In this document: piece by piece, positions 2,935 to 59,149 of the stretch
Layout: each line of letters begins with the position of its first letter
Position numbering within the stretch: the first letter of the stretch is position 1
Assembly (NCBI GenBank): GCA_036924085.1
Contig: JAVGWX010000018.1
Coordinates: forward strand, 22,378,964 to 22,442,963
Origin: Ariolimax columbianus
Lineage: Eukaryota > Mollusca > Gastropoda > Stylommatophora > Arionidae
DNA length: 64,000 nucleotides
Direction of reading: 5' to 3'
The notes under the pieces: model-generated
Database searches by the model: none
What the model saw: only the letters and a program-made list of their open reading frames with translations
What the model was told of the DNA's origin: nothing
Translations under genes and position numbers: made by a program

Positions 2935-3210
2935 CTCTTGTGTGCACCCTTAAAAAAACATTAAATGGTGGGTTGCAGTAGTTTTTCTCACATCCCGAGT
3001 ATGCTGATGAAGGTGGCGGGGTCCTCCAGGTTGTTGTGCTTTGCTTCATCTTCCCGAGGCTTACATGGAAGGCAACATGGTAGAGACATAGTGGCCTGAG
3101 TCAGTATGTTGTGCCTGACCCTGACGTCACGCCTTGGTCAGTATGTGGTGCTTGACCCTGACGTCACGCCTTGGTCAGTATGTTGTGCCTGACCAGACTA
3201 GCGTCGCATT
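2935..3210 (+). repeat. P-family dispersed repeat (partial)
   Basis: Shares its body with copies at 9556-10130 (+), 50700-51030 (+), 53090-53640 (+), 4380-5265 (-) and 57210-57520 (-). The common words are GGGTTGCAGTAG, TCACATCCCGAG, GTCCTCCAGG and TTGTGCTTTGC. The copy ends in about three diverged 37-bp units of the type GTCAGTATGTTGTGCCTGAC at 3095-3195. This copy lacks the central GGGGATCACGTCGATCC block found in the longer copies. There is no coding capacity, so it is a non-autonomous element of unknown class. Confidence 0.8.
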
Positions 3211-3414
3211 TCTCCAATAAGAGAGAGTGTGAGAGAGGGGGGGAGGGGGGGGGAGGTAGAGAGATTGAGAGAAGAATGCCAATTATATCTAAGTAGCCCA
3301 GAGAATAAAATTGAATGACAGAGGGAGGACAGATAGAGGGGAGCTGTTAGAAATAGAGATATGAGAGATATAGCGAGTTGTATAAAGAGATTTAGGAATG
3401 ATAGAGAATAGGGT

Positions 3415-5868: not shown

Positions 5869-6503
5869 CTTCTTCTTCTTCTTCGTACGCTGTTTACAGC
5901 GATATTTACGTTGCACTGTTTTATTTTGTTAAGCCCGTGGCTCAGTGCATCCGATTTCAACAGGCGTTTCTGTATGGTTGCCCTCCTAAGCCGTTGGCTG
6001 TCCCCAGCTAACTGCAAGGCAGCAGTTGTTTTTGGTCAGAGTTGTCTCTCTTAGGAAGTTGTCTTGCAGGACTATCGAGTCTTCCCTACTCGTGTCTATA
6101 GGGTTTGGCAATGATATGATGGACTATGTACTCGTTTGTACTTTCCCGGAAGAGAGGCAGTCCAGTGTGACTTTGTCCCAGGATCGTCACGTCCTGCCAG
6201 AAACGTAGCATATGCATGTGAGTGAGGTATCTCTTTGCTCCCTTTATTTTCTTGGCTCATCTGCAGTGATGGTACGCCTAGCATTCCCCGCCACCCGGGA
6301 GGTTGTCACAATAGGGCAGGAGGTGCAATGTCCGCTGGACTGCATCTCTTCTGCGTCCATTGGGATGACTGATAGCAGACAGAGGCAAAGAGTGAGGCAG
6401 GAGTGCATTTTACCAGGTGCATTTCTGCGGCTCGACCGGGCCGGACTGAGACGCAAGCCCCAGCCATGTCGTAGCCTCACATCACAGCGGTGCTGAGATT
6501 TAG

Positions 6504-6603
6504 GGCGGGATTCTGGCTTAGGGGCGTTCGGCCGTAGTCCCTCAGATGTTAGCTTATCAGCAAAGCACGTGGACCAAATGTCAGCGACCTGTGATTCCTC
6601 TCG
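6504..6603 (-). pseudogene. 28S rRNA 3'-end fragment A (degenerate)
   Basis: The plus strand shows GGATTCTGGCTTAG, GGCGTTCGGCC, GGTAGCTTATCAGC-like, CAAATGTC and CCTGTGATTCCTCTCG words. These follow the order of the complement of the conserved 28S region near its 3' end (TGACTTAGAGGCGTTCAG, CACCAAATGTCTG, GCGGTTCCTCTCG). About a fifth or more of positions differ from the conserved sequence as I remember it. Confidence 0.75.
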
Positions 6604-6937
6604 AAATAGTGCATTTGACCAGAGGACAAGCCTGGTCATTGCACGGAGATATTGTTCGCCTGGTGTGCGGACATATCTCATGGTCAAGGGTTGAGTCTCA
6701 GCAGTTCGCAGTGAGGTAGCTGATCTAGTGCTTAGGGCAACCCGACCGAGAACTAAGTCTTCTACAAATGGTTTCATACCTCATCGCCGTATGGGGTGAA
6801 TATCGAGTAGCTTCCCGCCCGCTTTGATAGGCGGACGGCAGAGACCTCATTCTGCGGCTCGACCGGGCGGTGCTGGAGCGGGAGCCCCAGTTCCCCACCA
6901 TGTCGAAGCCTCCCTTTGCAATCGTGCTGAGCTTTTG

Positions 6938-7146
6938 GGCTGGATTTTGGCTTAGAGGCGTTCGGCCGTAATCCCTCACCTTGTAGCCTCGCGCCGTTGG
7001 CTTATCAGCCTAGTACGTGAACCAAATGTCTGCGGCTCCTCTCGAGTTGAGCAGGATTACCGTAGCAACGCCCTGTCATTAGTAGGGTAAAACTGACCTG
7101 TCTTCCGAGGGTCTATTTCCAGCACCCGTTCAATATTAGGCCGGAC
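6938..7146 (-). pseudogene. 28S rRNA 3'-end fragment B (longest)
   Basis: Continuous collinear resemblance to the complement of 28S: GGCTTAGAGGCGTTCGG, TAATCCCTCA, TTGGCTTATCAGCC, GAACCAAATGTCTGCGG, TCCTCTCGAGTTGAGCAGG, ATTACCGTAGCAACG, AGTAGGGTAAAACTGACCTG, GGGTCTATTTCCAGC and ACCCGTTCAATATTAGG. Each aligns in order with the well-known segment containing GAGCAGGATTACCATGGCAA and AGTAGGGTAAAACTAACCTG. It is diverged and cannot be functional rRNA. Confidence 0.85.
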
Positions 7147-7181
7147 GTAACAATTGAGGGCTTTTTAGTTTGTCAATGGCC

Positions 7182-7320
7182 AAGTTTCTGGAACCTGCGA
7201 TTTCTGCAGGGTTAAGACCAGATTACCATAGCAGACGCTCTTTCATTAGGGGGTTAATAGACTGACCTAACTTCCGTGTATCTAATACCAGCACATGTTC
7301 ACTATTAGACCGCACGAAGG
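7182..7320 (-). pseudogene. 28S rRNA 3'-end fragment C (second, offset repeat)
   Basis: Repeats the downstream half of fragment B with different mutations: GGAACCTGCGATTTCTGCAG, ACCAGATTACCATAGCAG, TCATTAGGGGGTTAA, TGACCTAACTTCCG, CTAATACCAGCACATGTTC and ACTATTAGACC. Confidence 0.8.
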
Positions 7321-7350
7321 TGCTCTCGATTTGACAGTCATTCTACAGTA

Positions 7351-7418
7351 TTGGCGTGTTAAGTCAATTTAAGCCACAGGCTCCACTCCTGGTAGTGCTC
7401 TTCCGTCAATTCCTTTAT
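7351..7418 (-). pseudogene. 18S rRNA duplicate segment inside the mosaic
   Basis: GTGTTAAGTCAATTTAAGCC, ACAGGCTCCACTCCTGGTAG and TTCCGTCAATTCCTTTA match the complement of the conserved 18S segment GGAATTGACGGAAGGGCACC ... TTAATTTGACTCAACAC. The same segment occurs again, less altered, at 7549-7620. Confidence 0.9.
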
Positions 7419-7456
7419 AAAAAAACTGAATGCAGACAAACCGAGCCACAGAGGGC

Positions 7457-7520
7457 ATAACCCCAAATTTCCGAGGGTCTAAATCCAGCACTCGTTCCAT
7501 ATTAGTTAGACCCAAGGAAA
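7457..7520 (-). pseudogene. 28S rRNA 3'-end fragment D
   Basis: TCCGAGGGTCTAAATCCAGC, CACTCGTTCC and ATATTAGT repeat the end of fragments B and C (28S complement ...GGTCTAAACCCAGCTCACGTTCCCTATTAG). Confidence 0.7.
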
Positions 7521-7548
7521 GTGGTCTCGGCATGTCAGTCATTTCAGT

Positions 7549-7591
7549 GTTGGCCGTGTTGAGTCAAATTAAGCCGCTGGCTCCACTCATC

Positions 7592-7626
<35 letters not shown>

Positions 7627-8187
7627 TTTGCAACCATACTTCCCCCGGAACCCAAACACTTTGGTTTCCCGGAAGCTGCCCGCAGAGTCATTGAAGCAAC
7701 TCCTGCGGATCGCTAGTCTGCATCGTTTATGGTCAGAACTACGACGGTATCTGATCGTCTTCGCGCCTCTGACTTTCGTTCTTCATTAATGAAAACATTC
7801 TTGACAAATGCTTTTGCAGTAGCTCGTCTTGCAGCGGTCCAAGAATTTCACCTCTAACGCAGCAATACGAATGCCCCCGTTTGTCCCTGTTAATCATTAC
7901 CTCCAGTTCCGAAAACCAACAGAATAGAACCGACGTCCTATTCCATTATTCCATGCACCATTATTCAGGCAGCCGAGGCCTGCTTTGAACACTCTATTTT
8001 TTTCAAAGTAAACGCGCCGGCCACACAGGACGCTCAGCGAAGAGCACCCGTGGGAGAGAGCCGGCAGACGGTAGGGCAGGAGACAAAGGGCAGTGAACCG
8101 GCGCGAGCCGGACCGCCCGCCTGCGCCTGAGATCCAACTACGAGCTTTTTAACTGCAACAACTTTAATATACGCTATTGGAGCTGGA
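7549..8187 (-). rRNA. 18S rRNA fragment (pseudogene, V4 to ~1.2 kb)
   Basis: The complement of universally conserved eukaryotic 18S is clear: CGTCAATTCCTTTAAGTTTC, TTCCCCCGGAACCCAAA, CCCGCAGAGTCATTGAAG, ACGGTATCTGATCGTCTTCG, CAGGCAGCCGAGGCCTGC and TACGAGCTTTTTAACTGCAA. It runs from the central region back through V4. It covers neither the 5' end nor the 3' third of 18S. Substitutions at conserved sites (for example TTCTTCATTAATGAAAAC for TTCTTGATTAATGAAAAC) show it is not under rRNA constraint. Confidence 0.96.
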
Positions 8188-9053
8188 ATCCACCCCATTC
8201 AAAACTGACATCTATATACACGAACGCCTCTAACAGCCCACCCCATTCAAAACTGACATCTATATACACGAACGCCTCTAACAGCCCACCCCATTCAAAA
8301 CTGACATCTATATACACGAACGCCTCTAACAGTCCACCCCATTCAAAACTGACATCTATATACACGAACGCCTCTAATAGTCCACCCCATTCAAAACTGA
8401 CATCTATATACACGAACGCCTCTAACAGCCCACCTCATTCAAAACTGACATCTATATACACGAACGCCTCGAACAGTCCACCCCATTCATAACTGACATC
8501 TATATACACGAACGACTCTAATAGCCCACCCCATTCCAAACTGACATCTATATACACGAACGCCTCTAACAGCCCACCCCATTCAAAACTGACATCTATA
8601 TACACGAACGCCTCTAACAGCCCACCCCATTCAAAACTGACATCTATATACACGAACGCCTCTAATAGTCCACCCCATTCAAAACTGACATCTATATACA
8701 CGAACGCCTCTAACAGCCCACCCCATTCAAAACTGACATCTATATACACGAACGCCTCGAACAGTCCACCCCATTCAAAACTGACATCTATATACACGAA
8801 CGCCTCGAACAGTCCACCCCATTCACAACTGACATCTATATACACGAACGCCTCGAACAGTTCACCCCATTCAAAACTGACATCTATATACACGAACGCC
8901 TAAAACAGTCCACCCCAATCAAAACTGACATCTATATACACGAACGCCTCTAACAGTCCATCCCATTCAAAACTGACATCAATATACACGAACGCCTCGA
9001 ACAGTCCACCCCATTCAAAACTGACATCTATATACACGAACGCCTCGAACAGC
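8188..9053. repeat. 48-bp minisatellite, about 18 units
   Basis: Unit CCACCCCATTCAAAACTGAC followed by ATCTATATACACGAACGCCT and CTAACAG. Variation is mainly at CTCTAACAG versus CTCGAACAG and CCCACC versus TCCACC. Because 48 is divisible by three, the minus strand reads as a 16-residue repeat (YIDVSFEWGGLLEAFV) over long distances. I regard this as chance. It abuts the truncated 5' end of the rDNA-mosaic copy exactly. Confidence 0.97.
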
Positions 9054-18036: not shown

Positions 18037-18848
18037 TATTGCGCCTAATGTTTATACGATACATTTATATAATTACCTACTAATAGTGTGTATGAGATGT
18101 CTCAAACACGCAGCAAGCCGTATCCTACAAACACGCAGTATGATGATGGGCGTTTCAAAGTAGATTGAGATAAAAATCATTAGATGAGAATTCATTACAC
18201 AAAATTCCACCAAGAAATGAAGAAAGGAATTTTTTTAAATTGCATTAAATTAAAGATCAGCAATAGTCATTAAAAAAACCCAAATGATCAAATGTGAAGA
18301 TACATTAAAGTAGGGCGAGTTTAGCAGATGATCTTGGCAGAATGTCTTAAAATGCGACAAAAGAGGGTGGGGATAAGGCAGACATCGTGAATGGATTATT
18401 GCTTCGAAACCGCCACTGCATTTTATTGTATGTAGGTTTCTTTAACAGAGATTGTGAGGGAACCCACTCTAGTGTATGACTTAAGCTTCAATAACTGGAG
18501 TGAAAGAGGGGTCAAATGCACTGTCGGAAATATCATTTAATACGAGACCATTTTCTAGAGTTGTCTTCCTTAGACGTTTTGGGAACGTGAGTTATTGCTC
18601 CTTTACTGCTTCTTGTAAATGGGGGATATTGTTTCTAGGTATTTCTTCCAACCCGAAAAAGGTTACTGGAAACGCTGGAGGACTATATGAATAGCGGGGT
18701 GTGCAAACCCATGAGTTTGATAATCCTCTACCCTAGAGTTAATATAGGTCATAACGTACTACCACTGCCTTATGTATGTGAACCGTGGACATTGAATAAA
18801 CACAAACACATTCTTCTCTCACCTTTTTCAATTCGTTTTCTCTGTTTT
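18037..18848. other. Unassigned flank upstream of the LINE
   Basis: AT-rich unique sequence. Its last part, ending TTTTGCTCGTTCAAAA, resembles the start of units of the satellites downstream of the LINE (TTTGCTCGTTAAGAAA). The LINE therefore probably landed at the edge of that satellite field. Confidence 0.55.
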
Positions 18849-21800
18849 GCTCGTTCAAAACCCACAGGAAACAAAACCGCTCCCACGTTGGAATTACAAA
18901 CGAGCCGACTGGGACAGATTTGCAATCCTGACAGATGGGCTGTGTGAAACCATCAACACACGAAACACCAAAATGAAGCCCATGGTAGAGAGCCTAAGCA
19001 AGGCAATAATGCAAGCCGCCACTGAAACCATCCCAAGAGGAGCTAGGAAAAACTATAAGCCCTACTGGAATGATGAGTTACAGAAAGTGGAAGATGCAGT
19101 AACAAATGCTAGGAACATGGCAGAACGACAAAAATCCATGGAGGCAAACATCGCCCTCAAAGCCGCCGCGGCGAAGTACAAACACACTCTCAAGCAAACA
19201 GCAAGAGAAAGCTGGAAAAATAAAACGGAAAGTCTAAACCTGGACAAAGAAGGGAACAAGCTATGGAAGCTAGTCAGAGCCATGAATGACGAAACCCCGT
19301 CAAATAAACAAATTACTATCAAGCAAGGCGAGAACTTGATCACAGGTAAGAAAGCCGCAAACGCCTTTGTCGATCACTATGCCAGAGCAAACCACATCGA
19401 GGTCCCTGCAGATAAGCATACAGACATTAGCGAAGAGCTAAAGGGACACGAAAACATAAATACGGCTCCTGAAGAGCACATGATGGCCAAACTAACAATG
19501 CGCGAAATGGAAGAGGCTATGAGAACACTAAAGAAAAGGAAATCTCCCGGAAAAGACGGGATAACAAACGAAATGCTGATGGGGCTGGGCCAAACAGCGA
19601 AGAAGAAACTGCTATCGGTCCTAAACCAAAGCTGGAAAAGGGGAATTGTACCACAGGCATGGAAAGATGCAATACTGGTACCAGTACCAAAAACAGGAAA
19701 GGACAAAACAGATCCAAATGGATACAGGCCCATAAGCCTACTGAGCTGTGTCGGCAAGCTGATGGAACGGATGATAAACACCAGACTGATGTGGCATCTG
19801 GAAGAAAAACGAATACTAATTCCACAGCAAGCCGGCTTTAGACAGCACAGATCCACTGAGGACCAGGTCATCCTCATAGCCCAGGAGATAGAAGATGCCT
19901 ACCAGGCACAGAAACACACAGTAGCTGTTTGGGTGGATCTGGAAAAGGCATTTGACAAAGTCTGGAAGGATGGACTTAGAGTCAAGCTAAGAAGAAGTGA
20001 TGTCTGTGGGAAGATGTACAAGTGGATCAACCACTACCTCAAACAAAGAACGGCCAAAGTCCAAGTACAAGGGCAGATGAGCAAAAAGGTGACACTCGAG
20101 CAGGGAGTACCCCAAGGGGGAGTATTGTCACCCACACTCTTCCTGGTATATATAAACGATATTACAGAGAATATACCAAGAAGAGTCCATAGCTCAATGT
20201 TTGCAGACGATCTGGCTATGTGGACCTCTGAAAAGAATCTCACCATAGCAAGAAATCGGATGCAGACGGCCCTAACATCGCTGGAAGAGTGGGCGAACTC
20301 ATGGCTGGTCAAAATAAACGAGGAGAAAACCACGTGCACAATATTCTCGCTCTCATTAAAACCCCAAAGTACCAAATTAAGTCTAAATGGCAAAATCCTG
20401 CAGCCAAACGACAACCCAACCTATCTGGGAGTCACATTTGATCGGCGCATGACGTGGAAAAGTCAGATTGAGAGAAACCGAATGAAAGCCAGAGAAAGAA
20501 TGGCGATCATGAGGAAACTTGCTGGCACAAGCTGGGGAGCAGACGAAGGCATACTAAAGAAACTGTACACTGGAAGAGTGAGACCAGTTCTCGAGTATGG
20601 CATTGCGGCATGGACAACAGCAGCGAAGGCGAACTTCGATAAAGTTAACAAACTTCAAAACCAAGCCATGAGAATTATAACAGGTTGCATGAAGTCAACG
20701 CCAATTGTAGAACTTGAAAAGATTACAAAACTGCAATCCATGACCGATAGAAGAGACTGCAGAGCCCAGCTGCAGTCAGAGAAACTCCGAAGACTGACGG
20801 ACCATCCAATGTACCAGAGACTAAACAATCTGGGAAATGGGAAACTAAAGCGGAGAAACTTTGCAGAAATAGCCAAAGCAAAGATGCACGAAGATCCCAT
20901 AAACGCACTAACAACACCAAAACCCATCACTACTGTACGAAAACCTACTTGGAGGCAGGATATATTTCCAGAGGTGGTAGAAAATATACCAGGTATTGCA
21001 AACAAAAACTGCCAGACTGAAAAAGAAAGGAGAGACACTACCCTAAGCTTCATAACGAAAAGCTACCCAAGCATGGACTGGACCCATGCATACACCGACG
21101 GTTCTGTAACAAACACTACACAGAACGGAGGGGCAGGAGCATTCCTGAACCTACCAAATGGCAGAAAAATAACACTGTCATTCGCTACTGGTAAGTACAC
21201 AAGCAATTTCAGAGCGGAGACAGAGGCACTGAGGGCGGCAGTGGAAGAAATGGTAACACACAGTGAAAATGAGAGCCATATAGTCCTGCTGACAGATGCT
21301 CTCGCCGTAGTCACAGCGCTAAAAAGCCAGAAAAACACTGAGCTTAATGACTTAAGAGCAGCACTCTGTAAACTGTGCCAGCAGTCCGCACCAAAAAGGG
21401 TAGTGGTACAGTGGGTTCCGTCACACTGCAACATCCAAGGCAACGAGGAGGCAGACAGACTGGCAAAAGAAGGTGCAAGACTACCACAAACAGATACCAG
21501 TATGACGTACGAAGAGTCAAAACGGCTTATCAAAGCCAGATACATGACCAAATGGGAAACCGAACATACTGGTTACACCAAAAACGATGCCTATTACCAG
21601 TTGAACCGAAGAGAGCAGGTCGTTGTCTTCAGACTTCGCACTGGCCACAACAGACTGAGGTACCACCTATTCAACAAATTGAAGATAGGGTGTACCGACG
21701 AATGCCCGTGCGGTACTGGTAAAATGACCACTGAACATCTGCTGCAGAACTGCCCGACATACGAGGATCAGAGAGAGCAGATGTGGCCATTACCAGTGGA

Positions 21801-21882
21801 ACTGCAAGACAAGCTCTATGGTAGTGGCGAGAGTCTCAGGATGACCGCCGCTTTTTTCGAAAAAATAATGGTTACTGTCTGA
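18847..21882 (+). CDS. LINE ORF2 remnant: reverse transcriptase plus RNase H
   Basis: 1011 codons. The first methionine and the next few residues come from flanking DNA, so this is not a native start. An N-terminal linker, residues 10-220, is rich in Lys/Ala/Glu. The reverse transcriptase follows: SPGKDGITNEML near 233, NGYRPISLLSCVGKLMERMI near 290, QAGFRQHRSTEDQ near 327, VWVDLEKAFDKVW near 360, GVPQGGVLSPTLFLVYINDI near 420, and the catalytic FADD at 452-455. A thumb with LEYGIAAW lies near 585. RNase H starts at YTDGS (749-753), followed by RAETEAL (~790), LTDALAVV (~817) and PSHCNIQGNEEADRLAK (~858-875), which carry its acidic residues. A C-terminal CPCGTGKMTTEHLLQNCP (~953-971) is a CCHC-like knuckle usual for such elements. 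The endonuclease is absent. No stop or frameshift disrupts it, but without a 5' end and promoter it is unlikely to be expressed. I/jockey-group assignment rests on the RNase H behind the RT. Confidence 0.95.
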   Translation: MLVQNPQETKPLPRWNYKRADWDRFAILTDGLCETINTRNTKMKPMVESLSKAIMQAATETIPRGARKNYKPYWNDELQKVEDAVTNARNMAERQKSMEANIALKAAAAKYKHTLKQTARESWKNKTESLNLDKEGNKLWKLVRAMNDETPSNKQITIKQGENLITGKKAANAFVDHYARANHIEVPADKHTDISEELKGHENINTAPEEHMMAKLTMREMEEAMRTLKKRKSPGKDGITNEMLMGLGQTAKKKLLSVLNQSWKRGIVPQAWKDAILVPVPKTGKDKTDPNGYRPISLLSCVGKLMERMINTRLMWHLEEKRILIPQQAGFRQHRSTEDQVILIAQEIEDAYQAQKHTVAVWVDLEKAFDKVWKDGLRVKLRRSDVCGKMYKWINHYLKQRTAKVQVQGQMSKKVTLEQGVPQGGVLSPTLFLVYINDITENIPRRVHSSMFADDLAMWTSEKNLTIARNRMQTALTSLEEWANSWLVKINEEKTTCTIFSLSLKPQSTKLSLNGKILQPNDNPTYLGVTFDRRMTWKSQIERNRMKARERMAIMRKLAGTSWGADEGILKKLYTGRVRPVLEYGIAAWTTAAKANFDKVNKLQNQAMRIITGCMKSTPIVELEKITKLQSMTDRRDCRAQLQSEKLRRLTDHPMYQRLNNLGNGKLKRRNFAEIAKAKMHEDPINALTTPKPITTVRKPTWRQDIFPEVVENIPGIANKNCQTEKERRDTTLSFITKSYPSMDWTHAYTDGSVTNTTQNGGAGAFLNLPNGRKITLSFATGKYTSNFRAETEALRAAVEEMVTHSENESHIVLLTDALAVVTALKSQKNTELNDLRAALCKLCQQSAPKRVVVQWVPSHCNIQGNEEADRLAKEGARLPQTDTSMTYEESKRLIKARYMTKWETEHTGYTKNDAYYQLNRREQVVVFRLRTGHNRLRYHLFNKLKIGCTDECPCGTGKMTTEHLLQNCPTYEDQREQMWPLPVELQDKLYGSGESLRMTAAFFEKIMVTV
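18849..18860. repeat. Target-site duplication, left copy (LINE A)
   Basis: GCTCGTTCAAAA, repeated exactly at 21912-21923 behind the (GAA)n tail. This is the hallmark of target-primed reverse transcription. Confidence 0.93.
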
Positions 21883-21911
21883 CTGCGTACGCAGAAGAAG
21901 AAGAAGAAGAA
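18861..21911 (+). mobile_element. LINE copy A, I/jockey-group, 5'-truncated, GAA-tailed
   Basis: A 3.05-kb insertion bounded by an exact 12-bp duplication. It starts within the second reading frame, apparently after the endonuclease domain, so the 5' part was never copied. It ends just after the stop codon with CTGCGTACGCAGAAGAAGAAG. The 3' untranslated region is only ~13 bp before the GAA repeat. Shorter copies of the same family lie at 29222-29880 (-), 53930-54342 (-), 58705-59137 (+) and 50074-50172 (+). The open frame and perfect duplication indicate a recent insertion, and the family is a strong candidate source of machinery for other GAA-tailed repeats here. Confidence 0.95.
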
Positions 21912-29221: not shown

Positions 29222-29880
29222 CTTCTTCTTCTTCTTCTTCTTCTTCTTCTTCATCGTACGCAGTCAGACAGTAACCATTATTTTTTCGAAAAAAGCGGCG
29301 GTCATCCTGAGGCTGTCGACACTGCCATCGACCTTCTCGTGTGGTTCCACTGGTGATGGCCACATCTGCTCTCTCTGATCTTCGTATGTCGGGCAGTTCT
29401 GCAGCAGATGCTCAGCGGTCATTTTCTCGGTACCACATGGGCATTCGTCGGTACCACCTATCTTCAATTTGTTGAATAGGTGGTACCTCAGTCTATTGTG
29501 GCCAGTGCGAAGTCTGAAGACAACGACCTGCTCTCTTCTGTTCAACTGGTAAAAGGCATCGTTTTTGGTGTAACCAGTATGTTCGGTTTCCCATTTGGTC
29601 ATGTATCTGGCTTTAATAAGCCGTTTTGACTCTTCTTACGTCATACTAGTATCTGTTTGTGGTAGTCTTGCACCTTCTTTTGCCAGTCTGTCTGCCTCCT
29701 CGTTGCCTTGGATGTTGCAGTGTGATGGGACCCACTGTACCACTACCCTTTTTGGTGCGGACTGCTGGCATAGTTGACAGAGTGCTGCTCTTAAGTCATT
29801 AAGCTCAGTGTTTTTCTGGCTTTTTAGCGCTGTGACTACGGCCAGAGCATCTGTAAGCAGGACTATGTGGCTTTCATTTT
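29222..29880 (-). mobile_element. LINE copy B, 3' end, GAA-tailed
   Basis: Reverse copy of the last ~640 bp of the LINE at 18861-21911, starting within RNase H (NESHIVLLTDALAVVTALKS). It continues through PSHCNIQGNEEADRLAK and the CPCGTEKMTAEHLLQNCP knuckle to MVTV-stop, then CTGCGTACGATGAAGAAG. It is flanked by CCAAGACCCT at 29212-29221 and 29881-29890, a ~10-bp target-site duplication. One change, TAC to TAA near 29638, splits the frame after SMT. Otherwise it is very close to copy A. Confidence 0.94.
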
Positions 29881-29890
29881 CCAAGACCCT

Positions 29891-34859: not shown

Positions 34860-35049
34860 TCTTAGTCCATTTGTTTCAAATTTGTTCTTCTAACCTTCAT
34901 CTAATCACCACATCTGATACTCGTTAAATCTCTTCTAACCTTCATCTAATCACCATACCTGATAATCGTTAAATCTATTCTAATCTCCCTCTACTCACAT
35001 ACCTGATACTCGTTCACTCTCTTCTAATTGTCATCTAATCACCACATCT
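34860..35049. repeat. 45-bp minisatellite, left part, with TSD
   Basis: Units of CTTCATCTAATCACCACATC then TGATACTCGTTAAATCTCTT and CTAAC. The last 12 bp, ATCACCACATCT (35038-35049), are repeated at 38548-38559 on the other side of the inserted rDNA-mosaic element. Confidence 0.93.
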
Positions 35050-35089
35050 TCTTCTTCTTCTTCTTCTTCGTACGTTGTTTACAGCGATA

Positions 35090-35690
35090 TTTACGTTGCA
35101 CTGTTTTATTTTGTTAAGCCCGTGGCTCAGTGCATCCGATTCCAACAAGCGTTTCTGTAGGGTTGCCCTCCTTAGCCTTTGGCCGTCCCCAGCCTAACTG
35201 CAAGGCAGCAGTTGTTTTTGGTCAGAGTTGTCTCTCTTAGGAAGTTGTCTTGCAGGACTATCGAGTCTTCCCTACTCGTGTCTATAGGGTTTGGCAATGA
35301 TATGATGGACTATGTACTAGTTTGTACTATCCCGGAAGAGAGGCAGTCCAGTGTGACTTTGTCCCAGGATCGTCACGTCCTGCCAGAAACGTAGCATATG
35401 CATGTGAGTGAGGTATCTCTTTGCTCCCTTTATTTTCTTGGCTCATCTGCAGTGATGGTACGCCTAGCATTCCCCGCGACCCGGGAGGTTGTCACAATAG
35501 GGCAGGAGGTGCAATGTCCGCTGGACTGCATCTCTTCTGCGTCCATTGCGATGACTGATAGCAGACAGAGGCAAAGAGCGAGGCAGGAGTGCATTTTACC
35601 AAGTGCATTTCTGCAGCTCGACCGGGCCGGGCTGAGACGCAAGCCCCAGCCGTGTCGTAGCCTCCCATCAAAGCGGTGCTGAGATTTATG
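35090..35690 (-). other. Unrecognised 3' region of the rDNA-mosaic element
   Basis: About 600 bp conserved between the two copies (5889-6503 and here) with few differences and not recognised as rRNA. A minus-strand frame of 147 codons (35430-35873) corresponds to a 177-codon frame in copy 1 (6244-6777), but it runs through 28S-like segment A and resembles no protein family I know. This region should hold whatever sequence or structure is recognised by the reverse transcriptase. Confidence 0.6.
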
Positions 35691-35790
35691 GCGGTATTCT
35701 GGCTTAGAGGCGTTCGGCCGTAGTCCCTCATATGGTAGCTTATCAGCAAAGCACGTGGACCAAATGTCAGCGACCTGTGATTCCTCTCGA
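35691..35790 (-). pseudogene. 28S rRNA 3'-end fragment A (degenerate)
   Basis: Counterpart of 6504-6603: TTCTGGCTTAGAGGCGTTCG, GTAGTCCCTCATATGGTAGC, CAAAGCACGTGGACCAAATG and TTCCTCTCG follow the complement of 28S in order. Confidence 0.77.
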
Positions 35791-36090
35791 AATAGTGCAT
35801 TTGACCAGGGGACAAGCCTGGTCATTGCACGGAGATGTTGTTCGCCTGGTGTGCGGACATATCTCATGGTCAAGGGTTGAGTCTCAGCAGTTCGCAGTGA
35901 GGTAGCTGATCTACTGCTTAGGGCACCCCGACCTCATCGCCGTATAGGATGAATATCGAGCAGCTTACCGCCCGCTTTGATCGGCGGACGGTAGAGACCT
36001 CATTCTGCGGCTCGACTGGGCGGGGCTGGAGCGGGAGCCCCAGGTCGCCACCATGTCGAAACCTCCATTTGCAATCGTGCTGAGCTTTTG

Positions 36091-36300
36091 GGCTGGATTT
36101 TGGCTTAGAGACGTTCGGCCGTAATCCCTCACCTTGTAGACTCGCGCCGTTGGCTTATCAGCCTAGTACGTGAACCAAATGTCTGCGGCTCCTCTCGAGT
36201 TGAGCAGGATTACCGTAGCAGCGCCCTGTCATTAGTAGGGTAAAACTGACATGTCTTCCGAGGGTCTATTTCCAGCACCCGTTCAATATTAGGCCGGACG
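36091..36300 (-). pseudogene. 28S rRNA 3'-end fragment B (longest)
   Basis: Counterpart of 6938-7146, with the clearest collinear 28S words: TTGGCTTATCAGCCTAGTAC, CCTCTCGAGTTGAGCAGGAT, AGTAGGGTAAAACTGAC and GGGTCTATTTCCAGCACCCG. Confidence 0.85.
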
Positions 36301-36330
36301 TATCAATAGTTTTTAGTTTGTCAATGGCCA

Positions 36331-36468
36331 AGTTTCTGGAACCTGCGATTTCTGCAGGGTTAAGACCAGATTACCATAGCAGACGCTCTTTCATTAGGGG
36401 GTTAAGAGACTGACCTGTCTTCCGTGGGTCTAATACCAGCATATGTTCACTATTAGACCCCACGAAGG
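36331..36468 (-). pseudogene. 28S rRNA 3'-end fragment C
   Basis: GGAACCTGCGATTTCTGCAG, ACCAGATTACCATAGCAG, TGACCTGTCTTCCG, TCTAATACCAGC and TTCACTATTAGACC repeat the later half of fragment B with independent changes. Confidence 0.8.
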
Positions 36469-36500
36469 TGCTCTCGATTTGACAGTCATTCTACAGTATT

Positions 36501-36566
36501 GGCGTGTTAAGTCAATGTAAGCCGCAGGCTCCACTCCTGATAGTGCTTTTCCGTCAATTCCTTTAT
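36501..36566 (-). pseudogene. 18S duplicate segment in the mosaic
   Basis: GCGTGTTAAGTCAATGTAAG, CCGCAGGCTCCACTCCTG and CCGTCAATTCCTTTA duplicate the end of the main 18S block (36700-36770). Confidence 0.9.
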
Positions 36567-36611
36567 AAAAAAACTGAATGCAGACAAACCGAGCCACAGA
36601 GGGCATAACCC

Positions 36612-36670
36612 CAGATTTCCGAGGGTCTAAATCCAGCACCCGTTCCAGATTAGTTAGACCCAATGAAAGT
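36612..36670 (-). pseudogene. 28S rRNA 3'-end fragment D
   Basis: TTTCCGAGGGTCTAAATCCA and GCACCCGTTCCAGATTAG form the shortest of the four 28S-like blocks, placed directly next to the main 18S block. Confidence 0.7.
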
Positions 36671-36699
36671 GGTCTCGGCATGTCAGTCATTTCAGTGTT

Positions 36700-36737
36700 G
36701 GCCGTGTTGAGTCAAATTAAGCCGCAGGTTCCACTCA

Positions 36738-36774
<37 letters not shown>

Positions 36775-37935
36775 TTTGCAACCATACTTCCCCCGGAACC
36801 CAAACACTTTGGTTTCCCGGAAGCTGCCCGCAGAGTCATCGAAGCAACTCCTGCGGATCGCTAGTCGGCATCGTTTATGGTCAGAACTACGACGGTATCT
36901 GATCGTCTTCGCGCCTCTGACTTTCGTTCTTGATTAATGAAAACATTCTTGACAAATGCTTTCGCAGTAGCTCGTCTTACGGCGATCCAAGAATTTCACC
37001 TCTAACGCCGCAATACGAATGCCCCCGTTTGTCCCTGTTAATCATTACCTCCAGTTCCGAAAACCAACAAAATAGAACCGAGGTCCTATTCCATTATTCC
37101 AGGCACCATTATTCAGGCAGCCGAGGCCTGCTTTGAACACTCTAATTTTTTCAAAGTAAACGCGCCGGCCACCCAGGACGCTCAGCGAAGAGCACCCGTG
37201 GGAGAGAGCCAGCAGACGGTAGGGCAGGAGACAACGGGCAGTGAACCGGCGCAAGCCGGACCGCCCGCCTGCGCCTGCGATCCAACTACGAGCTTTTTAA
37301 CTGCAACAACTTTAATATACGCTATTGGAGCTGGAATTACCGCGGCTGCTGGCACCAGACTTGCCCTCCAATAGATCCTCGTTAAAGGGTTTAAAGTGTA
37401 CTTATTCCAATTACGGGGCCTCGAAAGAGTCCCGTATTGTTATTTTTCGTCACTACCTCCCCGTGCCGGGAGTGGGTAAGTTGCACGCCTGCTGCCTTCC
37501 TTGGATGTGGTAGCCGTTTCTCATGCTCGCTCTCCGGAATCGAACCCTGATTCCCCGTTACCAACATGGTAGGCATGTCACGTACCATCGACATTTGATA
37601 GGGCAGACATTTGAAAGATGCGTCGCCGGCACATGAGGCCATGCGATCAGCACAAAGTCATCCAGAGTCACCAGTGGGGACGACGCAACCCCACGAGGGG
37701 AAACGACGATTGGTTTTGAACTAATAAAAGCGCTCTTTCCGCGAGGGTCGGAGCTTGGTATGCATGTATTAGCTCTAGAATTGCCACAGTTATCCAAGTA
37801 GGATCGTGTCATCTAAGGAACCTCGACTGATTTAATGAGCCATTCGCGGTTTCACCGTGAGACAGTGTGAGCTTAGACATGCATGGCTTAATCTTTGAGA
37901 CAAGCATATGACTAGTGGCAGGATCAACCAGATAT
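36700..37935 (-). rRNA. 18S rRNA 5' two-thirds (pseudogene)
   Basis: The complement begins TATCTGGTTGATCCTGCCAC (canonical TACCTGGTTGATCCTGCCAG). It continues AGTCATATGCTTGTCTC, AATGGCTCATTAAATCAG, GGTAACGGGGAATCAGGGTT, CCAGCAGCCGCGGTAATTCC, TAGTTGGATCGCAGGCGCAG, AGGTGAAATTCTTGGAT, GGGAAACCAAAGTGTTTGGG and GGAATTGACGGAAGGGCACC. It stops at CTTAATTTGACTCAACACGG, about 1.23 kb into an ~1.8-kb gene. The 3' third is absent and scattered substitutions hit invariant positions, so this is not a working rRNA gene. Confidence 0.97.
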
Positions 37936-38547
37936 CTGTCGGAGACGTACGTACCGCACACACCGGTCGGCGGAGGACGGGTGTGTAAAAAGCCTCACTG
38001 AGACGGCCGCAGGGACCGACTGACGAACGGACGGACGGTTGTTCCCCCCCCCCTCACTCCGTCGACCTAAGACCGCCTGACAGGGGCCCCTACACACACC
38101 AGACGACCGACCGACCGGGCTCGCTCGCTCTGTGCAGAACGGATTCCAACGACCCCGGCGATGAATTTCACTGGGACTAGAGACAATTTGGCCTGCCCTT
38201 CTCCCGAGGGTTGGTCCCCGGGAGAACACAGGGCCTTCAGGCACAATTCCTGCTTTCCATTTGCCGGTCACAAGCTCTTTGCGAGAGTCTGACCACCAGC
38301 GAGACGAACTGTCGAGCTCTGCTATAAGCCTTAGATAAATCACCACCGACTGACAACGTTTCTCGATACGGACCAGAGCAGCGCACCTCGGCAGAGGAGA
38401 CGCCAAAAACCGCATCCCAATACCTCCACGGGGAAAGGCGAGCAAGCGTTTTCCGCAAGCCCGCGCTATCGCTCCGCCTGGCGGGACTGAGATCGCTTTA
38501 CGAGCACTGGTTGAAATTAAATCGCGGCGGCGAGACAACTACCCCAG
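37936..38547 (-). other. Probable rRNA 5' external transcribed spacer segment
   Basis: Directly upstream, in the 18S sense, of the 18S 5' end. It has a GC-rich, low-conservation composition with a C/G homopolymer near 38045 and CGGTCGGTCGGTCG-type runs, as expected of a spacer. Assignment rests on position. The element's own 5' end is CTGGGGTAGTTGTCTCGCCG at 38547, which would be at or downstream of the rRNA transcription start. Comparison with a complete rDNA unit of the same species would settle this. Confidence 0.7.
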
Positions 38548-38775
38548 ATCACCACATCTGATACTCGTTAAATCTCTTCTAATCTCCATTTAATCAACAT
38601 ACCTGATAATCGTTAAATCTATTCTAATCTTCATCTACTCACATACCTGATACTCGTTAAATCTCTTCTAATCTTCATCTTATCACCAGATCTGATACTC
38701 GTAATCTATTCTAATCTTCATCTAATCACCACACCTGATACTCGTAATCTCTTCTTATCGTCATCTAGTGACCCT
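38548..38775. repeat. 45-bp minisatellite, right part
   Basis: Begins with the right target-site duplication ATCACCACATCT (38548-38559) and continues GATACTCGTTAAATCTCTTC in the phase of the left part, then decays toward 38775. Confidence 0.94.
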
Positions 38776-39399: not shown

Positions 39400-39667
39400 C
39401 TGCCTGAATGAATATCAACAATTCTAGTTACTTTAAGCGGGGGCTCAACTTCATTGCCTCGGGTTTTTTCCCCATTTTACATCTGTCTCTCTCGGCAGAT
39501 GGGTACCCCATCTGTGGAGAGCATCGCACAAAGCACGAACTCCGTAGCTCCAGAGATGAACCTAGGAATCTCCTGAAAAAATTGACATTATGGACCGACG
39601 GCTCGAAATCGAACCCCGACCGTCTGAACACGAGACAAACGGCTTGACCACTTCGCCACAGAGACCC
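39400..39667 (-). mobile_element. tRNA-headed SINE, reverse
   Basis: The complement begins GGGGTCTCTGTGGCGAAGTG, containing A-box TGGCGAAGTGG. It has B-box GGGGTTCGATTTCG about 35 bp on, both well spaced for a tRNA-derived Pol III promoter. The body behind it (39400-39590) is unlike SINE family 1. Confidence 0.75.
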
Positions 39668-39779
39668 CAAATTATCTGTACCGATTTACACTCCATATAG
39701 ATCATACACAGGAGAGAGAGAACCTATGCAGGGACGTACAAGTAATAGCAGACCATCATCAACGATTATTTAGAAAGTT

Positions 39780-40840
39780 AAAATAACATGGACTAGGTTG
39801 AAAAGTTGCCAAATGAATTGAAAATCGGTTTACGAGAAGAAGGCAGAGAGTGGGCATACAATAAGGAGTGCTATGAGCGGTGTGAAGTAAAAAGTGGAGT
39901 GCCACAAGGCTCGGTTTTGTAATCAATTTTGTTTTTGATATATGTAAACGATTTGGACATTGGTACCGGATCCATGGTTGCAAATTTCGCTGATGACACA
40001 AAACTAAGCACCGGTGTCTCATTTAAAGCAAAAGTGGATATATTGAGGTCGGATTTAGATAGAATTCGAGAATGTTTAATGTAGATAAATGCATAGTCAT
40101 CCACATGGGCAGATCTAATATGGAACATGCTTACAGAATGGGCGATAATAATATTAGAATGATCGACAAGGAAAGGGAGCTAGGGGTTATAATAGATCAT
40201 ACAGGTAAGGTGAGTGAGCAAGTCCAGGTAGCAGGGAAAACGGCAAATGTAATATTAGGTATGAAAAAAAGAAATATTGAACAAAGGAGTAAGGAAGTGA
40301 TAGTCAAACTGTGTAAAGCTTTAGTTAGACCTAGATTGGAGTACTGTGTACAGGTGTGGAGTTCTTATCGTGCAGGAGATATAAAGATGCTAGAAAGGAT
40401 ACAAAAAAGAGCGACAAAGCTGATAGTAGGATTCCAGAATTACAGTTATGAGGAAAGACTCAGAAATACTGGTCTATGGTGTATAGAAAAGAGAAGAATT
40501 CGAGGTGACTTAATACAGGTTTATAAGATAATCAAAGGAACGGAAAAATTAGACTATAAGTTTTTTTTTCTTTCAAATACCTACAAGAACAAGAGGGCAT
40601 AGCTACAAATTAACCAAAGAAAGGTCCAGATTAAATTTTAGGAACTATTTTTTTTAGTCAGAGAGTGGTGAATGCTTGGAATGCATTGCCATAGGAAGTA
40701 GTGGAGGCAGGGACAATTAATGCATTTAAGAATAGATTGGATGCGCACAGCTTTTAGAGCAAGGAAATGTAAAAGAAACTGGTTGTGTACAGACTCAGCA
40801 AAGTCTTCTAAACCAGTATAAAGACGTTAAGTTAGGTTAA
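39780..40840 (+). mobile_element. CR1-like LINE, 3' part, broken
   Basis: An early frame reads CEVKSGVPQGSVL, then a stop, then FLIYVNDLDIG and VANFADDTKLSTG, the RT catalytic FADD region. After a frame change, 40072-40602 is open and reads FNVDKCIVIHMG, ERELGVIIDHTGKVSEQ, ALVRPRLEYCVQVWSSY, ERIQKRATKLI and LIQVYKIIKG. The 3' end is CTTCTAAACCAGTATAAAGA then TTAAGTTAGGTTAA. At least one stop and one frameshift, plus a T-run frameshift near 40561, disable it. Related 3' ends are at 33628 and 44335. Confidence 0.88.
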
Positions 40841-50073: not shown

Positions 50074-50172
50074 CTACAAGCTGTATGGCAGTGTCGACAG
50101 CCTCAGGATGACCGCTGCTTTTTTCTAAAAAATAAAGGTTGATGTCTGACTGCGTACGATGAAGAAGAAGAA
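50074..50172 (+). mobile_element. LINE copy E, last ~100 bp
   Basis: AAGCTGTATGGCAGTGTCGA, CAGCCTCAGGATGACCGCTG and TCTGACTGCGTACGATGAAG, then GAAGAAGAA. A severely 5'-truncated copy of the LINE family at 18861, placed inside the 57-bp array. The flanks AATCAAGATCT and AATCTATATCT look like an imperfect target-site duplication. Confidence 0.88.
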
Positions 50173-53929: not shown

Positions 53930-54342
53930 TCTTCTTATTCTTCTTCTTCTTCATCGTACGCAGTCAGACATCAACCTTTATTTTTTCGAAAAAAAGCAGC
54001 GGTCATCCTGAGGCTGTCGACACTGCCATAGAGCTTGTCTAGTGTTACCACTGGTGATGGCCACATCTGCTCTCTCTGATCTTCGTATGTCGGGCAGTTT
54101 TGCAGCAAATGCTCAGCGGTCATTTTCCCGGTACCACACGGGCATTCGTCAGTGCCACCTATCTTCAGGTGGTACCTCAGTCTATTGTGGCCAGTGCGAA
54201 GTCTGAAGACCACGACCTGCTCTCTTCTGCTCAACTGGTAATAGGCATCGTTTTTTGTGTAGCCAGTATGTTCTGTTTCCCATTTGGTCATGTATCTAGC
54301 TCTAATAAGCCGTTTTGACTCTTCGTATGTCACACTAGTATC
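53930..54342 (-). mobile_element. LINE copy C, 3' end, GAA-tailed
   Basis: The minus strand reads SVTYEESKRLIRARYMTKWE, TEHTGYTKNDAYYQLSRREQ, RTGHNRLRYHLKIGGTDECP and HLLQNCPTYEDQREQMWPSP, ending CTGCGTACGATGAAGAAG. It is flanked by GGACGAGCATTT at 53918-53929 and 54343-54354, an exact 12-bp duplication. It lacks the four residues FNKL present in copy A and has an altered end (FFRKNKG). Confidence 0.94.
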
Positions 54343-58704: not shown

Positions 58705-59137
58705 GGCAAAAGAAGGCGCAAGACTACCACAACCAGATTCTAGTGTGACCTACGAAGAGTCTAAAAGGTTTATTAGGGCCAGATACATGGCCAAATGGGA
58801 AACAGAACATACTGGCTACACAAAATTGATGCGTTTTACCAGTTGAACAAAAAAGAGCAGGTGGTTGTCTTCAAACTCCGCACAGGCCACAACAGACTGA
58901 GGTACCATCTATTCAATAAACTGAAGATAGGTGGCACTGACGAATGCACCTGTGGTACAGGGAAAATGACCGCTGAATATCTGCTGCAAAATGTCCCGTC
59001 ATATGAGGACCAGAGAAAGCACATGTGGCCATCACCAGTGCCAACACTAGAGAAGCTCTATGGCAGTGTCGACAGCCTCGGATGACAGCTGCTTTCTTCG
59101 AACAAATTCAAGTTGACGTCTGACAGCGTACGAAGAA
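58705..59137 (+). mobile_element. LINE copy D, 3' end
   Basis: AKEGARLPQ-type start, then TYEESKRFIRARYMAKWETE, a one-base indel near 58822, then FYQLNKKEQVVVFKLRTGHN and ECTCGTGKMTAEYLLQ. It ends GACAGCGTACGAAGAA. It is flanked by GGCCTGAAGTAC at 58693-58704 and 59138-59149, an exact 12-bp duplication. It is more diverged from copy A than copies B and C and has almost no GAA tail left. Confidence 0.94.
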
Positions 59138-59149
59138 GGCCTGAAGTAC

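Follow-up and report, generated by a model that had tools for sequence, protein, structure and literature searches.

The window analysed here, a 64,000-nt stretch of Ariolimax columbianus DNA (contig JAVGWX010000018.1), carries at 35050..38547 on the minus strand a 3,498-bp non-autonomous retroelement, e1, which is built largely of ribosomal RNA (rRNA) sequence and derives from a long interspersed element (LINE). Its 5' end is at 38547, from which all e1 numbering runs. From 5' to 3', all on the minus strand, the parts of e1 are a 616-nt leader (37932..38547), 18S rRNA from nt 1 to about nt 1,210 (36700..37931, from Rfam and a 27-mer spanning the head-body junction), a decayed 18S/28S mosaic (35588..36699, from self-comparison and bin-wise comparison), a region of about 500 nt without a family name (35089..35587) and, past an internal deletion, the LINE 3' end CGTACGAAG(GAA)n (35050..35088, with the 12-mer at 35063-35074). 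We call the leader and the first 18S stretch the head, and the remainder the body. An earlier note on this DNA had read 18S from its 5' end through about 1.2 kb, and Rfam bears this out, matching model positions 4-1116 to 37931-36794(-) at 885.5 bits, with 18S extending past the match to about 36700. Four 28S pieces had also been proposed; Rfam finds one long match to the 28S 3' end (model 3005-3399 at 36227-35859(-), 78.3 bits), while the count of four comes from self-alignment and inspection by eye. A proposed second 18S piece is weak in Rfam and appears as a diverged repeat when e1 is compared with itself, the 18S-28S segment being present again in diverged form.

The 12-bp repeats that flank e1 (downstream copy 35038..35049, upstream copy 38548..38559) are exact, as had been noted. 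They lie inside a 45-bp minisatellite whose units contain the 12-mer, so that the repeat alone is weak evidence, and because its last AT is present in 27 of 27 copies checked, the first 2 bp of the upstream copy are probably the element's own AT and the duplication is better given as 10-12 bp. A second copy of the element, overlooked in the earlier note together with the partner LINEs, lies at 5869..8189(-) next to a 48-bp minisatellite. Rfam and self-comparison show it to be 5'-truncated inside 18S and 96-97% identical to e1; its flanks hold no exact duplication of 8 bp or more, and GTGG was seen there by eye.

The family is abundant and dispersed. The head-body junction 27-mer occurs 4,451 times in the 2.29-Gb genome and its reversed pattern 0 times; genome counts throughout are lower bounds. 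A family search found 9,076 candidates, of which 40 were scored, giving 49 matches (a lower bound) on many chromosomes, and 39 loci fetched plus the window's own made up our set of 40. Exact duplications of 11-15 bp, different at each locus, flank 19 of the 22 full-length copies, e1 among them; some lie in tandem repeats and are weaker evidence there. The remaining three are L019, with 12 bp around a larger chimeric insertion, L004, with 7 bp, and L013, with none. A pyrimidine stands before the insertion site in 19 of 19 cases, preceded by T in 18, and a purine follows in 18. The earlier note had set the copy count as a test beforehand and had also looked to common ends with different duplications; both outcomes support its non-autonomous, rRNA-carrying mobile element, as do the dispersed copies and the common 3' end. 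Variable target-site duplications, 5' truncation with a constant 3' end, and a 3' end in common with an autonomous partner mark a LINE derivative. Site-specific insertion into ribosomal DNA (rDNA) in the manner of R2 does not fit copies dispersed over chromosomes with differing duplications. Nor does an rRNA-derived short interspersed element (SINE) with an RNA polymerase III head fit, since the Rfam matches in the window are to 18S and 28S alone, with 5S, tRNA and 7SL absent, and ARAGORN reports no tRNA there.

The autonomous partner was recognised through the 3' terminus CGTACGAAGAAG, which has 7 matches in the window at up to 1 mismatch against 0.16 expected. These are the two non-autonomous elements and five LINE 3' ends. 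LINE-A (18861..21911, plus strand, flanked by GCTCGTTCAAAA) is 5'-truncated and has an open frame of 1,011 codons at 18847-21882, with RVT_1 and RNase_H, that stops just before the 3' motif. The other four are 3' fragments: LINE-B (29236..29881(-), flanked by AGGGTCTTGG), LINE-C (53934..54342(-), AAATGCTCGTCC), LINE-D (58705..59138(+), GGCCTGAAGTAC) and LINE-E (50076..50172(+), placed by its 3' motif in a minisatellite). Duplications of 10-12 bp are present at four of the five ends, LINE-E being ambiguous inside its minisatellite, and the second element copy and LINE-A to LINE-E all combine 5' truncation with the constant 3' end and tail. LINE-A is very young; of 2,459 candidates in the genome, the 40 scored (itself included) are all 99-100% identical. 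Of 904 matches 120 were listed, and the relatives at 42-67% identity among them include named Batillaria and Littorina proteins, which by themselves would make a caenogastropod host probable; the best-listed relatives carry endonuclease, reverse transcriptase (RT) and RNase H Pfam domains. Pieced together from separate copies, the partner would thus appear to hold endonuclease, RT and RNase H in one open reading frame (ORF), as expected of the I superfamily. Ingi elements are common in some gastropods (PMC11203168).

At 11 loci the sequence beyond e1 3459 continues as a LINE ORF whose start is endonuclease-like; the two longest of these loci reach LINE-A sequence (84-90% identity over 252-426 bp). 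On C1 one LINE-A copy (99-100%) has a head-body junction on its own strand 2,474 bp upstream, against an expected distance of about 2.45-2.48 kb. The 18S/28S mosaic is the 5' leader of the LINE, and 35089..35587 is the final part of that leader, adjoining the LINE ORF at other loci. Because the leader is continuous with the LINE ORF there, the 3.5-kb element amounts to the LINE leader plus the LINE's last bases. Hence e1 is non-autonomous and derives by internal deletion from a young RT/RNase-H LINE, whose 3' tail it shares, and the GAA tail reported earlier is the LINE tail.

The upstream leader, previously described as spacer-like, could be identified from the host's own arrays. A tandem rDNA stretch (L049 on contig C222) reads ...GGAATGTATATT-ATCTGGGGTAG, and the promoter-like sequence of that unit is directly followed by ATCTGGGG, which is exactly where the head begins; because of this, and with its first part aligned to the unit from there, the leader is the 5' external transcribed spacer (ETS), starting at the predicted RNA polymerase I (Pol I) start. 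The sequence AT-CTGGGG starts 27 of 27 copies tested. Upstream of the start base similarity to rDNA falls to chance level (8.9 of 40), the dispersed copies checked carry no rDNA promoter-like sequence, and Rfam finds no ribozyme, including HDV-like ones, at the element 5' end. Over the first 382 bases compared, the e1 leader is 86% identical to tandem rDNA, and the leader of the youngest copy, L030, shows 0 mismatches in 382 columns and one 7-nt gap by BLAST (in the multiple alignment 8 of 374 positions differ, owing to other placement of the gap). The promoter-start pattern has 122 genome matches; the 100 listed, in contig order, comprise 4 chromosomal matches and 96 on 12 short contigs, many of them spaced about 12.28 kb apart or by multiples of this. 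The rDNA arrays were recovered only with a universal 18S motif, a longer form of which gave 0 matches, and a 28S-mid query returned pieces dispersed over chromosomes (40 scored of 81 candidates).

The arrays themselves are uneven. On C50, C86, C100, C190, C222 and C233 the universal 18S 3' 20-mer is present in 12 of 65 promoter-marked units tallied, at +2287 or +2313, and some unit spacings there are 3-7 kb above a multiple of 12.28 kb. Units without the 20-mer may have a variant 18S, be damaged or contain masked sequence. The exact promoter-start matches on chromosomes are at C5:86646556, C10:58993503, C12:62836870 and C13:24609058, the C10 match having a 28S-mid piece about 0.7 kb away in the same orientation.

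Head and body trees are discordant, and the two parts differ in history. Trees were built from 29 of the 40 loci, 21 non-autonomous and 8 LINE-type; L009, L014, L017, L018, L021, L024, L028, L032, L033, L037 and L040 were omitted for a missing 5' end, a missing 3' part or internal deletions. LINE-type and non-autonomous copies differ by 2.7% in 18S, 9.3% in the leader and 13-21% in the body, the bin-wise divergence jumping sharply at e1 ~1850. Beyond that point, after a 14-nt gap, inspection by eye finds about 45 nt that read as diverged 18S. The ETS tree (FastTree) is a ladder in which the two kinds of copy are intermixed, whereas the body tree sets six of the eight LINE-type copies apart and places the two oldest basally on the non-autonomous branch, and label changes number 7 on the ETS tree against 1 on the body tree. 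By the approximately unbiased (AU) test, the six LINE-type copies as one ETS clade are rejected (p 7.8e-6), as is a mixed young clade, named after the ETS tree had been seen, for the body (p 1.2e-12).

Consensus sequences, drawn from 25 of the 29 tree loci in groups picked after the trees were seen and compared by substitutions with indels counted separately, point the same way. Young LINE and young non-autonomous consensuses differ at 0 of 630 ETS and 0 of 1232 18S positions, while their bodies differ by 14-19% (28S mosaic 173/891, 3' region 68/478). Between old and young non-autonomous consensuses the ETS has changed at 38 of 630 positions (6%) and 18S at 0 of 1239; older copies thus hold older ETS states with 18S free of consensus substitution. 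ETS distance to today's rDNA climbs with private 18S changes (rho 0.79, n=29), a correlation that is partly built in since both measures include post-insertion changes, and in old copies the ETS distance reaches 12-26% against 1-3% for private 18S changes. Substitutions in 18S that copies have in common are mostly scattered pairs rather than subfamily marks. From old to young copies the ETS and body consensus has changed by 3-6% and private 18S changes differ by less than 1% on average, so the source lineages change faster than the inserted copies. Such a pattern is expected if the head is taken from an rDNA array that is in use and changes slowly; neither vertical descent nor selection on 18S predicts it. 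The head is largely in the version that host rDNA likely had when the copy was made, and would seem to be drawn from the host and not simply inherited. The earlier interpretation was sound as far as it went, but it missed the deletion derivative of a LINE, the rRNA as that LINE's 5' leader, the 5' ETS and the separate history of the head.

Further contact with rRNA is recorded in chimeric copies. L019 is a single insertion in which 241 nt of 28S (99.6%) are fused to the exact element start, one 12-bp duplication surrounding the whole, and in L046 internal transcribed spacer 2 (ITS2) is fused at the same start. A join at the exact start makes it likely that the element RNA ends at ATCTGGGG and that pre-rRNA is close to where the enzyme works. 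Among 53,434 candidate 5.8S loci 40 were scored and 8 fetched, and in every one of the 8 the LINE leader is fused to ITS1-5.8S-ITS2 or 28S 5' pieces, with seven junctions by eye, the near-identical pair L043/L044 being counted once. The LINE enzyme is thus seen joining its own copies to pre-rRNA. Two pairs of chimeras, L041 with L043 and L045 with L048, have a nearly common 5' end in ITS1, perhaps at pre-rRNA processing sites.

We infer Pol I transcription, docking in rDNA and target-primed reverse transcription from the GAA tail. In this view rDNA units would house the source copies, docked behind the Pol I promoter, and the RNA to be copied would be read from there; docking may be re-made through homology of the 1.85-kb head with rDNA, the docked head would be kept in step with the rRNA genes, and the LINE enzyme would carry out target-primed reverse transcription from the GAA tail at TY|R sites. 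That source copies are so docked, with the head thereby in step with the rRNA genes, we regard as an evenly balanced proposition; a source behind a Pol I promoter would account jointly for the start, the history of the head and the absent promoter. A broader claim, to which we give slightly less than an even chance, is that no more than the back half belongs to the lineage itself: the opening 1.85 kb of every copy would come from the host rRNA unit via docking, so that the lineage would have no promoter of its own to silence, its RNA would begin as pre-rRNA and its copies would form a dated archive of past rDNA spacer.

Several observations weigh against docking. Jumps onto an rRNA template are documented but no docked copy was seen, the junctions listed spanning C1 to 50.6 Mb, without rDNA contigs. 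Docking does not account for the upkeep of a functional LINE ORF in the docked sources, the start base is a Pol I transcription start by prediction, and in the part of C1 that was listed a junction stands at the expected distance from one of two LINE-A hits. Private changes in 18S are slightly commoner on the 3' side (1.21% and 1.46%, with p 0.21 for a trend over 8 bins). Indels add to this. Relative to the Rfam consensus, all 8 LINE-type copies and 4 of the 21 non-autonomous ones have a 7-nt gap in 18S (GTAACGG, e1 986, 18S nt ~370), at a direct repeat where such a loss may recur; three 3-nt ETS indels separate the young groups. As full renewal from intact rDNA at each event would erase such indels, the head is not wholly free of lineage, and since the 7-nt gap is lineage-linked, LINE sources seem to carry their own 18S, in step with rDNA in substitutions.

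Template switching, a possible if doubtful alternative, would have a LINE RNA with an 18S stretch; during target-primed reverse transcription the enzyme would leave it within that homology for the plentiful pre-rRNA and copy this as far as the 5' end, which would renew the head. The enzyme demonstrably jumps onto rRNA, as L019 and the 5.8S loci attest, and the head/body boundary coincides with a break in 18S homology. The 7-nt gap, however, lies 860 nt upstream of that boundary and would vanish by any downstream switch onto intact 18S, while a switch upstream of it cannot explain the 860-nt stretch without consensus substitution; nor is there a clear gradient of inherited changes, and with dispersed copies lacking a promoter, transcription goes unexplained. 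Docked units that are incompletely homogenised accommodate the lineage indels better than a switch close to the boundary does. A vertically inherited head, its 18S held by selection for ribosome mimicry, internal ribosome entry or escape from silencing, could draw on the lineage-linked gap and on 18S without consensus substitution between lineages. We think it quite unlikely, as the ETS is identical in substitutions across lineages whose bodies are 14-19% apart and changes with age in both, a pattern for which 18S selection does not account, and the tree tests and consensus counts strongly disfavour it. Very unlikely, too, is an exchange of heads confined to LINE and non-autonomous RNAs; it would likewise mix the ETS tree and could retain some lineage marks, but the pool of heads changes in the manner of a functioning rRNA gene (ETS 6%, 18S 0/1239), and over 382 columns the youngest head matches today's rDNA without mismatch, one gap aside. 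An assembly chimera or chance processed rRNA pseudogenes have next to no probability. Retrocopies of rRNA are known from other genomes (PMC13174262), yet 4,451 identical junctions, together with precise ends and differing duplications, led us to reject both, and the many copies with the same ends make an assembly chimera at the ends of e1, raised in the earlier note, very unlikely.

If docking holds, a 5' half that follows the host rRNA genes would be a new way to gain a promoter. It might also offer an escape from silencing, because host small RNAs against the head would also strike rRNA. The copies preserve earlier rDNA spacer states as fossils and bring their own clock, their 18S being free of substitutions at insertion and decaying later, and concerted evolution of rDNA thereby becomes directly measurable.

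The surroundings of e1 deserve brief mention. The window (1-64000) is very rich in minisatellites, with 89 TRF rows, and both elements and LINE-E abut or sit within them. A stretch at 39578-39670(-), ggtctctgtggcgaagtggtcaagccg..., looks tRNA-like and SINE-like by eye, ARAGORN calling no tRNA in the window, and a 176-codon open frame at 40072-40602(+) by eye resembles the C-terminal part of another LINE's RT.

No relative was found in viral contigs (protein scan and junction 27-mer) or genome contigs (junction 27-mer), and the listed titles and abstract starts of open-licence PMC text yielded no description of a LINE with an ETS-18S head. Partial likenesses exist. SINEs with rRNA heads, 5S SINEs included, are small, and a 28S-derived mammalian SINE was reportedly described by Longo in 2015; they resemble e1 in an rRNA 5' head and LINE-type mobilisation, whereas e1 measures 3.5 kb, stems from the LINE itself and has a head without the body's history. 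The ingi/RIME pair of trypanosomes, an I-group RT/RNase-H LINE and an internally deleted partner with both ends in common, is alike in architecture but carries its own 5' promoter/ribozyme (Pr77), where Rfam finds no ribozyme here. The R2/R1 rDNA retrotransposons and R2 SIDEs show rDNA dependence (here proposed), an internally deleted non-autonomous partner and in vivo 5' template jumps (PMC3414825, PMC2718515). By the same texts R2 is site-specific in 28S and freed from rRNA by a 5' ribozyme, unlike the dispersed copies seen here, in which the rRNA stays as the head. LINE-1 chimeras with 28S, 5S and U6 RNA (28S/L1 n=18, median 269 nt; PMC13174262) likewise have an RT joining rRNA to a LINE 5' end; as presented there they are single insertions, in contrast to a fixed 1.85-kb ETS-18S head that is present in thousands of copies and tracks the rDNA over time.

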